From positions 1-21,049 of the IMG/VR virus record IMGVR_UViG_3300031857_001661: a stretch of DNA of 21,049 nucleotides, one strand, 5' to 3'. A program made the translations under genes and the position numbers. The notes under the pieces are model-generated. The model searched no databases. It saw only the letters and a program-made list of their open reading frames with translations, and was not told the origin of the DNA. Source of the stretch: a virus. This document shows positions 14,305-18,220 of the stretch, piece after piece. The number at the start of each line of letters is the position of its first letter. The stretch's first letter is position 1.

Positions 14305-15720
14305 TTAATTTTTGCGTTTTTTCTGTGACTTGATTTGTTCTGGTAATACAAGACCTTTGATTTTGGCAATCCTTGCATTTAACCGTGCCCAATCTTCTAA
14401 ATCTTTGAACTTAAAATGTCCAGTACCTTTTTTGAATAGCTTAAACTCAAAAAATCCCCAGTCATACAAGCCGCCTGGCGCAAGGCGATCAAATCCACAT
14501 TCAGGTTTTTCCATTTCTTCATATTTTCGTCCGGTAATATAACAGAGCGCTTTGATCAAATCATCTACACTTCGACCCGCATCGCTATGGCGACTAAAGC
14601 AAACCCCTGCGCCCATGATATGAGGCGTGGCTGCATCAGGTATGATAAATTTTTGACCAAATAAATACTGTTCATTGGTTGCCCATCCCTCTACTTGCCA
14701 GCGATTATCTTTTATGTGTTTTGTTAAATTATCAAATACTGCTTCAATAGCTCGATCAATTCGCTGATCGGTGGTCCCCGCGATAATACATAGCATTCTA
14801 AATAAATTTCTCTCTGTAAATGGCACCTGCTCTTGTTGTTCAACAAATTTGTTTATATCACCCTGCAGTTGACTGGTAGCCTTTTCACGAGGCAGCATCT
14901 CAGCAATCACAGACTTCCAGAAGTCTTTTTGTAATTCCTTTCGGAATCGTGATCGCGAAGGCGCACATCCATCAAGAGTGATTTGAATTCCTAGCTCACC
15001 CTTGTAAATACCGCCTATTTGAGCCTGTAGTCGCACACCAGCTTCTAATTGTTGATCATAAATTTTGCAAGCCTCAACATATCTATTAACTAGATCCCTT
15101 GAGCGACGATAAGGGATAATCCCTTCTCCTTGCGCTTCTATTTCATCAGGCCCCAGAAAAAAACCTTCAAATTCATCGCCGCCAGAAGATCGCCGCCCAG
15201 GTTTTATTAAACGAACCATGCCAATCTCGCAACGAGTTGTGCGCTCGGCATTTTCAAATACTGGCCCTAAATTTAAGCGACTTCCATAATCATTGATTAG
15301 TACGCGCAGCTCTCGACAAGCGCGAAAATTATGACGACTTTCGTTAATTGTTGACCAGTTACATAGACTTACGATTTCACAACCGGGCGGCGCAATCTTC
15401 CAGGCGTGAAGAATATGATGCTCATCTGCGCTAAACGGCGGATTCATTGCGATCACATCCGCATGGCTAATCTGCTCTGCCTGAACCTGTAGCCAATCGC
15501 CGCCGATCAACTGGCAGCCAGGGATTGCCGCGAGGATGGCCCTTAGCCGTGGCTCAACTTCAGCCGCGAGCACGTCTGTAGCGCCGCGATCCATGGCTTC
15601 TTTCACCAGGTTGCCGCTACCTGCACTGGGCTCCACTACCGTGCGACCACGCAGATCCAGTGGATCTAGCATGGTGGCCGCTACTTCGGATGGCGTTGGG
15701 TAGAAGTCGGGGTTAAACAT
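14305..15720 (-). CDS. DNA adenine methyltransferase with DUF4942 domain (471 aa)
   Basis: The N-terminal half is a class I SAM-dependent methyltransferase: the DFYPTP opening (5-10), motif I EPSAGSG (30-36, SAM binding), an acidic residue after it (Asp75 in GGDW) and the catalytic NPPF (93-96), which marks N6-adenine or N4-cytosine methylation. The C-terminal ~200 residues match DUF4942: FWKSVIAEM (~285), a central helical region, DDLIKALCYITG (~395) and FFEFKLFKKGTGHFKFKDLE with a final basic end. Such phage enzymes modify phage DNA to evade restriction or change packaging or expression. No partner restriction enzyme was found. It follows three oxygenase-like genes by 26 bases, probably in the same operon. 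Confidence 0.85.
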   Translation of the reverse strand: MFNPDFYPTPSEVAATMLDPLDLRGRTVVEPSAGSGNLVKEAMDRGATDVLAAEVEPRLRAILAAIPGCQLIGGDWLQVQAEQISHADVIAMNPPFSADEHHILHAWKIAPPGCEIVSLCNWSTINESRHNFRACRELRVLINDYGSRLNLGPVFENAERTTRCEIGMVRLIKPGRRSSGGDEFEGFFLGPDEIEAQGEGIIPYRRSRDLVNRYVEACKIYDQQLEAGVRLQAQIGGIYKGELGIQITLDGCAPSRSRFRKELQKDFWKSVIAEMLPREKATSQLQGDINKFVEQQEQVPFTERNLFRMLCIIAGTTDQRIDRAIEAVFDNLTKHIKDNRWQVEGWATNEQYLFGQKFIIPDAATPHIMGAGVCFSRHSDAGRSVDDLIKALCYITGRKYEEMEKPECGFDRLAPGGLYDWGFFEFKLFKKGTGHFKFKDLEDWARLNARIAKIKGLVLPEQIKSQKKRKN

Positions 15721-15746: not shown

Positions 15747-16250
15747 TTAATTAGCCTTCCTTATCCTAACAGATTGACTTGCAATCACCCATCGACAATT
15801 GGCCATCCAAGCGTGCCTAGCGTCACTATTAAACAAAAAAACAACTCCTACGTTGATTGTTAAAACTTTATTGCTTGCAAAAAGGAAGCAGTTATCAATA
15901 GTTGTAATAGTCCGTGTTATGTTTTGCTTTGCAACAAGCACACCTAGCGAAAGGCCAAAGCTATTATCATAATGTGGCTCTACAGATCCAGCGCCATAGA
16001 TATAACAAGAAGGATAGCAAAACTTGCTATTTTTGCGCTTAAATTCAAAACCATGTAGATTGCATATTTTACGCAAACTATCTAAAATTAAATCATTTTC
16101 TTCTGGATAAGCAGTATGAACACTTCCTAAATAGTATTGCGTAGCTTGCTTTAGTAGAGTTTTATGAAAACTGTTTGTTTTAATTGTCATGTGACGTAGG
16201 ACACGCGGCTTGCGACTCGAAGGCGAGCTGTCAATCATTGTGTAGTTCAT
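15747..16250 (-). CDS. Fe(II)/2OG oxygenase-like protein, paralogue 3 (167 aa)
   Basis: Third of three tandem paralogues. The start at 16250 overlaps the preceding gene in ATGA, so it is preferred to 16295. The signature is CYIYGAGSVEPHYD with His93-x-Asp95, a following strand (LSLGVLVA), then VVFLFNSDARHAWMANCRW with His146 and Arg153. His-x-Asp plus a distal His is the Fe(II) triad of the double-stranded beta-helix oxygenase fold (AlkB, TET/JBP, prolyl hydroxylase). The Arg is at +7 from the distal His, not the usual ~+10, so 2-oxoglutarate use is uncertain. The GDVF of the other two paralogues is GVVF here. Five Cys residues lie within 65-122. Substrate unknown. Confidence 0.6.
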   Translation of the reverse strand: MNYTMIDSSPSSRKPRVLRHMTIKTNSFHKTLLKQATQYYLGSVHTAYPEENDLILDSLRKICNLHGFEFKRKNSKFCYPSCYIYGAGSVEPHYDNSFGLSLGVLVAKQNITRTITTIDNCFLFASNKVLTINVGVVFLFNSDARHAWMANCRWVIASQSVRIRKAN

Positions 16251-16747
16251 TTGATTGCTTTTTTCAATGTAACACCTTGACCCACAAGTAGCCATCTACA
16301 ATTGGCGACCCAAGTATGTTCTATATTAGTATTAAGCAGAAAAACATCTCCTTCTTGAACGATGATATGTCTTCCTTGTGCAAGTAGGGTGCAACTGTTA
16401 ACTTCGTCGCCAGACTGAAAATTCTTTGACAAGTCTTTCGTTGAAACAAGTGCATTTATAGTCCATCCAAGCCCGGTATCTTCATGCGGAGTAATCGAGC
16501 CTGCCCCGCAAAGATAAAAAGGGTTTGAGTAGCCGCCAACGCGATCCCTGAGCTTAGGCGTACACTCATTTAGTTCACATATTGCTTGCAGCTCAATTAA
16601 GATTGGATCTTCGCGTGATATTGGCTCAGGCCACGCAAAACCCAATCCGTATCGCGTGCTTTCTCTTAGCATTTTCCTGTGATAGCTCGTTTCATTTATA
16701 TCAATACTGCCTAGAACTTGTAGATTGCGTTTTGGATGATGAGTCAT
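16247..16747 (-). CDS. Fe(II)/2OG oxygenase-like protein, paralogue 2 (166 aa)
   Basis: Second of three tandem paralogues. It shares the core FYLCGAGSITPHED with His88-x-Asp90, the strand GWTINALVS, then EGDVFLLNTNIEHTWVANCRW with His144 and Arg151, a pattern shared with its neighbours and the Fe(II)/2-oxoglutarate oxygenase fold. The N-terminal ~75 residues (YHRKMLREST, PILIELQAICELN) are helical and are shared in type with the neighbours. It overlaps the third paralogue in ATGA (16247-16250) and lies 44 bases after the first. There is no Shine-Dalgarno; the ATG is preceded by a T8 run. A cupin-type metal protein is an alternative. Confidence 0.6.
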   Translation of the reverse strand: MTHHPKRNLQVLGSIDINETSYHRKMLRESTRYGLGFAWPEPISREDPILIELQAICELNECTPKLRDRVGGYSNPFYLCGAGSITPHEDTGLGWTINALVSTKDLSKNFQSGDEVNSCTLLAQGRHIIVQEGDVFLLNTNIEHTWVANCRWLLVGQGVTLKKAIK

Positions 16748-16791
16748 TAAAAAAAATGCAATGAAAAAGCAAAAGGGTTAGAGTTTGATGT

Positions 16792-17319
16792 CTATTGGGA
16801 TTTGTGGTCAACAGCAGCACTTGAACGATCTGGCTTTATAACCGACTGCGTTGCAATTAGCCATTTTCTGTTAGACATCCAAGCGTGATAAATACTTGGA
16901 TCAAAGATAAAAACGTCACCAATCTCAAGCTCAATAAATTCGCCTTCGGTTATCAAGGCGCAAGGGTAATTATGGACATAGGAGTCTTGCAAAAGCTCCG
17001 ATAGATTTTCAACACCAACAAGCACGCAAACTTCTAGGATACTTCCGAGGTGATCTTTGTGCAAAAATACAGATCCTGCGCCATACACAAACTGATTGCT
17101 GTTAGGTTTGTTTTCAACGTCAAGACCATGGGCTTTGCATATCAGTCGAAGGCCTTGAACAATTGCATTGTTTGCGCCTGCTGTATCAACATTTCCAAGT
17201 GTTGCTCGATTAAGCAACTGTTTTTCATAAATGCCACAGGAGACTTCAAAATGATCAATTGAACGAGCCGTAGCAATTAGATCATCAGAATAACTTGTAA
17301 TTCCGTTGATGCGACTCAT
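16792..17319 (-). CDS. Fe(II)/2OG oxygenase-like protein, paralogue 1 (175 aa)
   Basis: First of the tandem trio in transcription order. Core signature: QFVYGAGSVFLHKD with His87-x-Asp89, the strand ILEVCVLVG, then IGDVFIFDPSIYHAWMSNRKW with His145 and Arg151/Lys152. It matches the two downstream proteins over the whole length of this core, including GAGS, the acidic linker, GDVF, H-x-W and the closing W, showing common origin. The N-terminal ~75 residues are a helical extension (AIVQGLRLICKAHGL). Residues fit Fe(II)-dependent oxygenases, but the catalytic reaction is unproven. Upstream lies a 71-aa gene 35 bases away and no clear promoter. Confidence 0.6.
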   Translation of the reverse strand: MSRINGITSYSDDLIATARSIDHFEVSCGIYEKQLLNRATLGNVDTAGANNAIVQGLRLICKAHGLDVENKPNSNQFVYGAGSVFLHKDHLGSILEVCVLVGVENLSELLQDSYVHNYPCALITEGEFIELEIGDVFIFDPSIYHAWMSNRKWLIATQSVIKPDRSSAAVDHKSQ

Positions 17320-17354: not shown

Positions 17355-17570
17355 CTAATCTAGCGACTCTAAAAACAAGCGTGATTCATTATCGCAATAT
17401 CCACCTTCGTTGTCCTCTATTGTTATTGCATAGGTTTCGTAAGCACATACAACCATGTCACCGCAGAATCCATACCTTGCCGACAAATACTCAACGAGTT
17501 GTTGAGCTTTTTTAAGTGCTTGATTCATTGGCATTGCTATTAACTGATTGAGGCGATCTTCTGTTTTCAT
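17355..17570 (-). CDS. Small protein (71 aa) ahead of the oxygenase cluster
   Basis: I do not recognise this protein. It is helical in the first half (TEDRLNQLIAMPMNQALKKA, QQLVEYLSARYGF) with a polar Cys- and Asp/Glu-rich second half (YCDNESRLFLESLD). There is no membrane segment. It precedes the three oxygenase-like genes by 35 bases on the same strand and could be the first gene of that operon. Its own promoter was not found, and an upstream terminator hairpin (17606-17628) separates it from the membrane-protein gene. Confidence 0.55.
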   Translation of the reverse strand: MKTEDRLNQLIAMPMNQALKKAQQLVEYLSARYGFCGDMVVCAYETYAITIEDNEGGYCDNESRLFLESLD

Positions 17571-17635: not shown

Positions 17636-18061
17636 TCAGGCGGCCACTACCTCCAGCAAAGCCCGCTTAGGCGCCCGCTTGGCTGGGCGGGGGCGCTTCG
17701 GGCCTGGAGCGGCAGGAGCAGGAGGGGCCGCTACGGCGGCCTTTTTGGCGTAGGTGCGTGGTTTGCGGACTGGGGCGGGGGCAGGGGCGATCATGATGGG
17801 ATCAGGAGTGACGGTGGGTACTGGTGCTGGTGCTGGTGCTGGCGCTGGCGCTGGCGCTGGCGCTGGCGCAACCCCCAGAACTGCAACCCACCAGGCGGCG
17901 AGTTGATCGTTTCTGGTGTCGATCGCAATGCGCAGCTCACCGCCCAGCCAGTAGACCAGTTCAGCGGTGGTGATCGCGAGAGCAATCAGGGGTGTGATGA
18001 CGCGGGCTGCAGTTTCCAGATTGCGGCCAATGTTGGCGGAGGAAAAATCAGATGGTTTCAT
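17636..18061 (-). CDS. Membrane protein with Ala-Pro repeat and Lys/Pro/Ala-rich tail (141 aa)
   Basis: The N-terminal ~70 residues include a hydrophobic helix (~17-34, RVITPLIALAITTAELVYWL) and a second weaker one (~55-65, LAAWWVAVLG). They are followed by eight Ala-Pro dipeptides (~68-83), another Pro-rich patch, and a strongly basic Ala/Lys/Pro/Arg-rich tail (TYAKKAAVAAPPAPAAPGPK and KRPRPAKRAPK). The rigid Ala-Pro stalk would hold the basic domain away from the membrane; the tail is histone-H1-like and could bind DNA or polyphosphate. ATG at 18061 opens the natural protein. ATG at 18154 is also in frame and would add 31 residues. No family was recognised, and the function is unknown. Confidence 0.6.
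   Translation of the reverse strand: MKPSDFSSANIGRNLETAARVITPLIALAITTAELVYWLGGELRIAIDTRNDQLAAWWVAVLGVAPAPAPAPAPAPAPAPVPTVTPDPIMIAPAPAPVRKPRTYAKKAAVAAPPAPAAPGPKRPRPAKRAPKRALLEVVAA
17821..17868. repeat. Eight-unit 6-bp tandem repeat encoding Ala-Pro
   Basis: On the + strand three CTGGTG units are followed by five CTGGCG units, encoding Ala-Pro dipeptides on the - strand. The two unit types form separate blocks, which points to repeat expansion of one unit from the other by slippage. Copy number could vary between related phages. Confidence 0.85.
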
Positions 18062-18220
18062 GGCGGAAAAGGGTGTGGTTTGAGTGGATGGTGGCCGGGG
18101 CCATCTCAGGGCCTCGCCGGCTGCTGAGGCTGTCTCTGTCGCCTCATGTGCCAATCATAGGGTGCGTTGCCGCCAGGGGGGCGGATCTGTAACAATCTGT
18201 TGTAATTGACCTGAGGCATG

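Follow-up and report, generated by a model that had tools for sequence, protein, structure and literature searches.

Three adjacent, strongly diverged genes on a presumed cyanophage genome raise the question of what kind of enzyme they encode, what these proteins might act on, and whether the DNA methyltransferase gene beside them belongs to the same pathway. They lie in a virus record from IMG/VR, 21,049 bases long and hereafter called the window, and an initial annotation had read them as tandem paralogues with the Fe(II) signature of double-stranded beta-helix oxygenases. The features that concern us are the following.

17355..17570, minus strand: small open reading frame upstream of C, 71 aa long and separated from it by 35 nt (from the ORF list)
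16792..17319, minus strand: C, putative oxygenase paralogue of 175 aa and first of the three, with H87, D89, H145 and K152 (from the ORF list)
16247..16747, minus strand: B, putative oxygenase paralogue of 166 aa, with H88, D90, H144 and R151 (from the ORF list)
15747..16250, minus strand: A, putative oxygenase paralogue of 167 aa, in ATGA overlap with B (from the ORF and the alignment of homologues)
14305..15720, minus strand: DUF4942 DNA methyltransferase with an NPPF motif (Pfam DUF4942, E 1.7e-23; PHROG 32703, E 1.9e-115)

The open reading frame of A as listed, 15747..16295, opens with an ATG farther upstream, at 16295, the start taken in the initial annotation; the true start is most likely at 16250, because the ATG there overlaps the TGA of B as ATGA and the homologues align from that point. 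C and B are separated by 44 nt, and the methyltransferase, which does adjoin the oxygenases as had been noted, starts 27 nt downstream of A on the same strand. Given these short gaps, C, B, A and the methyltransferase may be read as a single transcript, probably from one operon, and the 71-aa frame may share a transcript with C. Scans of the window for promoters and terminators gave counts no higher than in shuffled sequence. An Ala-Pro repeat protein (APAPAPAP) is encoded just upstream of the operon, at 17636-18154 on the minus strand, and like tracts occur in two of the related contigs described below, L013 and L014.

The sequence of the window is contained in an 80 kb relative (G001, L024-L027) whose terminase shares 35-36% identity with the terminases of Synechococcus phages S-CBS2 and S-CRES and of cyanophage PSS2. 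A sigma-70 region 2 gene (L026:11442-12329) follows directly after the terminase, as it does in PSS2 and S-CRES, and the helicase of L013 shares 58% identity with its counterpart in Synechococcus phage S-H1. Because terminase, sigma-factor position and the L013 helicase all match cyanophages, the phage is likely a cyanosiphovirus of picocyanobacteria. The 80 kb relative also encodes ThyX, thymidylate kinase, a dCTP deaminase-like protein, an R2K ATP-grasp protein and a SpoU methylase, as well as DUF5131, FGE-sulfatase-like and Rieske-domain proteins.

Pairwise BLASTP gave 33% identity between A and B (E 7e-32), 35% between A and C (E 7e-24) and 36% over 88 aa between B and C (E 1e-13); the similarity is therefore not due to chance, and by sequence comparison A, B and C are true paralogues, as first proposed. 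The shared motifs are also present as described, namely a GAGSxxxHxD box, a GDVF strand (GVVF in A) and a distal HAW or HTW followed at +7 from the histidine by arginine, or by lysine in C. When 11 distinct family members, the window copies included, are aligned, only 14 columns are invariant; these include H88, D90 and H144 in the numbering of B, so that the triad is kept in all 11 members and not in the window copies alone. At +7 from the distal histidine, 10 of the 11 carry arginine and one, copy C, carries lysine, and a tyrosine ten residues before the histidine of the HxD motif is nearly invariant in the same alignment.

The predicted structures of B and C indicate which class of enzyme this core may belong to. 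The AlphaFold models, built on shallow alignments of 6 sequences for B (pLDDT 85.4, pTM 0.83) and 11 sequences for C (pLDDT 81.8, pTM 0.77), both show a double-stranded beta-helix barrel preceded by an N-terminal region that contains two helices, in agreement with the fold proposed from the motifs. In B, DSSP assigns eight core strands, with H88 at strand II, H144 as the first residue of strand VII and R151 as the second of strand VIII; in the model of C, K152 stands at the start of strand VIII. Foldseek placed L-proline cis-4-hydroxylase first for B (E 3.8e-5), with cupins and other hydroxylases below, and TM-scores of B to solved 2-oxoglutarate (2OG) enzymes were modest, at 0.38-0.48 by query length. 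With VIA-align the best match of B reached Z 10.1 (rmsd 3.7, 132 residues aligned), the leading structures being proline 3-hydroxylase (10.1), ALKBH7 (10.1), PHD2 (9.7) and AlkB (9.4), and the best 50 rows were oxygenases or hydroxylases by title save the uncharacterised 2rg4. For C, proline 3-hydroxylase was again best (Z 11.6, rmsd 3.1, 129 residues aligned), followed by viral collagen prolyl hydroxylase (11.3), PHD2 (10.8) and AlkB (10.2), and only 2OG hydroxylases were found among the matches listed. Structural matches among viral proteins (BFVD) included annotated phage 2OG-Fe(II) oxygenases and similar predicted folds of cyanophage proteins.

In 2OG enzymes the basic residue that binds the 2OG carboxylate lies at the start of strand VIII, and in PHD2, proline 3-hydroxylase and AlkB it is found +9 to +17 from the distal histidine. 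The models thus present the features of the Fe(II)/2OG superfamily, that is, an eight-strand core with HxD at strand II, the distal histidine at strand VII and an arginine or lysine opening strand VIII. The arginine at +7 had been called unusual for 2OG binding; the residue is indeed there, but since it opens the last core strand, its spacing looks like the product of a tight hairpin between strands VII and VIII in the models and not like an anomaly. Taken together, it is quite likely that these proteins belong to the Fe(II)/2OG oxygenases, with a structure of the prolyl-hydroxylase/ALKBH7-like type, the placement of the triad being judged from strand positions.

The family falls outside the curated sequence families searched. 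Scans of Pfam, NCBIfam and PHROG gave no convincing family match; no curated 2OG family in Pfam or NCBIfam scored above its cut-off, the best being Asp_Arg_Hydrox, which one member matched at E 0.021; across seven phage records PF13640 (2OG-FeII_Oxy_3) gave no match with E <= 0.1, and no AlkB family was matched by sequence in Pfam. A sequence profile search of the PDB returned chance matches only, the PADLOC library of defence systems returned none, and no relation emerged when profiles were compared with one cyanophage PiuC. A match of one member to PHROG 17310 (E 1e-4) was also obtained in 8 of 14 control genomes and is therefore taken as an unspecific beta-barrel signal. Relatives were found in nine IMG/VR contigs and in no other source searched: two that are identical to the window over the compared stretches, L003, L006 with its near-copy L007, and L013-L016. 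For isolated phages tblastn gave chance-level matches only, no relative was found on plasmids, and none was confirmed in 84,980 bacterial and archaeal genomes, which were scanned with short degenerate patterns that could miss distant relatives. A 174-aa gene upstream of a Leeuwenhoekiella phage methyltransferase was considered as a relative and rejected, as it has no HxD...H. Judged from these searches, the sequence family is new within a known fold class.

From the models we infer metal binding, 2OG binding and catalysis. The proteins would be minimal non-haem Fe(II)/2OG oxygenases of about 166-175 aa, in which H88, D90 and H144 of B would hold Fe(II) and R151 of B, or K152 of C, would bind the C5 carboxylate of 2OG; to go by fold and motif, O2 would be activated, 2OG converted to succinate and the substrate hydroxylated. 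Enzymes of the prolyl-hydroxylase type, such as PHD2/EGLN1, PBCV-1 vCPH and proline 3-hydroxylase, have in common with the family the predicted fold, HxD...H and a basic residue at strand VIII, and the conserved tyrosine has what we take to be the spacing of Tyr303 in PHD2. The phage proteins, however, are only about 8-15% identical to them in structural alignments, have no profile match, are only 166 aa long and carry the basic residue at +7, whereas it is generally found at +9 or +10 in the known enzymes. AlkB and ALKBH7 likewise have the fold (Z about 10) and the triad in common with the phage family, which differs from them in the absence of a profile match, a shorter spacing between distal histidine and arginine, and little room for a lid. 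Closer in host are PiuC and the other 2OG-Fe(II) oxygenases known from T4-like cyanophages, which occur in the same host group with similar predicted folds and of which several per genome are known (PMC3037559); those are found in myoviruses, whereas here three adjacent paralogues occur in a siphovirus-like phage, unrelated by profile to the one PiuC compared. Pelagiphages carry several non-orthologous 2OG oxygenases near each other, though not adjacent (PMC9599517).

As to the substrate, the balance tips slightly away from a DNA base and towards a protein or a small molecule: in fold the nearest enzymes are ALKBH7 and the hydroxylases of prolyl residues and free proline, and the evidence from the methyltransferase is weak. 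Our tentative first choice of target would be a side chain on a protein, be it of the host or of the phage. It is rather more doubtful that the substrate is a small molecule, be it that a free amino acid or metabolite is hydroxylated or that the drawdown of 2OG steers host metabolism. 2OG is the nitrogen-status signal of cyanobacteria, and free-proline hydroxylases are among the best structural matches. In addition, cyanophage 2OG enzymes have been proposed to act in 2OG/NtcA signalling (PMC3037559). Yet no NtcA-type site lies near the operon; GTA-N8-TAC occurs once in the window, at 443, as chance would predict, and plain consumption of 2OG would leave unexplained why there are three copies that differ so strongly.

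A nucleic-acid substrate appears unlikely. Here the proteins would be DNA-base oxygenases that oxidise or remove the methyl group set by the adjacent methyltransferase, AlkB- or TET/JBP-like in action, and would belong to a DNA-modification system. In the window, L003, L006 and L014 the oxygenase is beside a DUF4942-type methyltransferase, and in L013 and L016 beside a helicase and an N6_N4 methylase, which are homologous between these two contigs (38% and 31%), so that oxygenase genes stand upstream of two unrelated kinds of methyltransferase; the appearance of AlkB among the structural matches also speaks for such a role. Seen from the other side the pairing weakens: among 60 related DUF4942 methyltransferase loci with at least 1.5 kb of upstream sequence, the oxygenase is present at five, from three lineages, and absent at 55. 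Relatives of the L013/L016 type of helicase occur in 345 phage records, and the three Synechococcus phages inspected (S-H1, S-CBS3 and S-LBS1) show no annotated oxygenase beside their helicase-methylase genes. Of the neighbours read in L015, none is recognisable as a methyltransferase. In L013, a pentapeptide-repeat-like protein (L013:4252-4947) is encoded directly upstream of the single oxygenase. Adjacency to a methyltransferase thus recurs at oxygenase loci, but the pairing is not conserved from the methyltransferase side, and because of the five in 60 loci and the helicase-methylase genes without an annotated oxygenase in three phages, the functional link is weak and the methyltransferase is probably not a partner. 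Moreover, DNA-repairing AlkB enzymes carry a nucleotide-recognition lid, for which about 166 aa leave little room, as judged from length. The earlier suggestion of DNA modification through the neighbouring methyltransferase is weakened accordingly, and that of TET/JBP-like activity gains no support from the matches listed, as no TET or JBP entry was among those of Foldseek for B, those of VIA-align for B and C, or the Pfam matches.

A further reading, quite improbable as a whole, is that of a new phage oxygenase family in which every one of the tandem, diverged copies would have its own host protein or modified base to hydroxylate; one of them might, for example, oxidise the methyl mark set by the adjacent methyltransferase and thereby disguise the phage DNA. 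More improbable still is that the proteins are cupin-like metal or ligand binders that do not use 2OG, with a non-oxygenase or regulatory role: cupins of the AraC_binding and TM1459-like kinds have a related beta-barrel fold, many of them appear in the Foldseek list and B has Pfam matches to AraC_binding, 3-HAO and Cupin_2, but these lie far under the cut-off, no cupin is among the best 50 VIA-align rows for B or C, and where cupins have HxH the phage family has an invariant HxD together with the arginine or lysine at strand VIII, as fits a 2OG enzyme.

The triplication had been called old, and for the most part this is borne out: A is closer to one of the L006 copies (56% identity) than to B or C, and with no more than 33-36% identity among A, B and C where they align, the split into paralogues probably predates that of these phages. 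The qualification is that the grouping of the window copies and the L003 homologue as one clade is borderline (p-AU 0.054) and that copy number has been variable in recent time. The orthology of A, B and C to the other copies is only partly settled by the tree, because its deep branches are unresolved and its branches long. The window has three copies, L006 two and L003 one, although L003 is 92-96% identical to the window over long aligned flanks. The L003 gene is B-like with the last roughly 25-30 nucleotides A-like (seen at L003:5414-5513), as would be expected from recombination within the tandem array. L014 has two copies, the second with an in-frame TAA at L014:5097-5099, which could mark a pseudogene, an assembly error or a recent loss. 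The oxygenase set probably forms an accessory part of the genome, with copies being lost and recombined. At the same time, dN/dS is about 0.2-0.4 for the nearer pairs, with several pairs near synonymous saturation, which suggests apparent purifying selection and retained function. Because the copies are strongly diverged yet apparently under purifying selection, the paralogues probably act on different targets.

The unusual part of this locus is the tandem array of paralogues with its variable copy number, while the kind of enzyme is ordinary. 2OG oxygenases are abundant in cyanophages and their substrates scarcely known, and the present family consists of very small proteins (about 166 aa), is missing from those curated libraries that were searched and occurs in one, two or three tandem copies. 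In one case near-identical phages differ in copy number, a natural comparison through which copy number and sequence could be linked to host range or DNA chemistry, and if the target proved to be a specific protein or base, a widely distributed class of phage genes would acquire a function.
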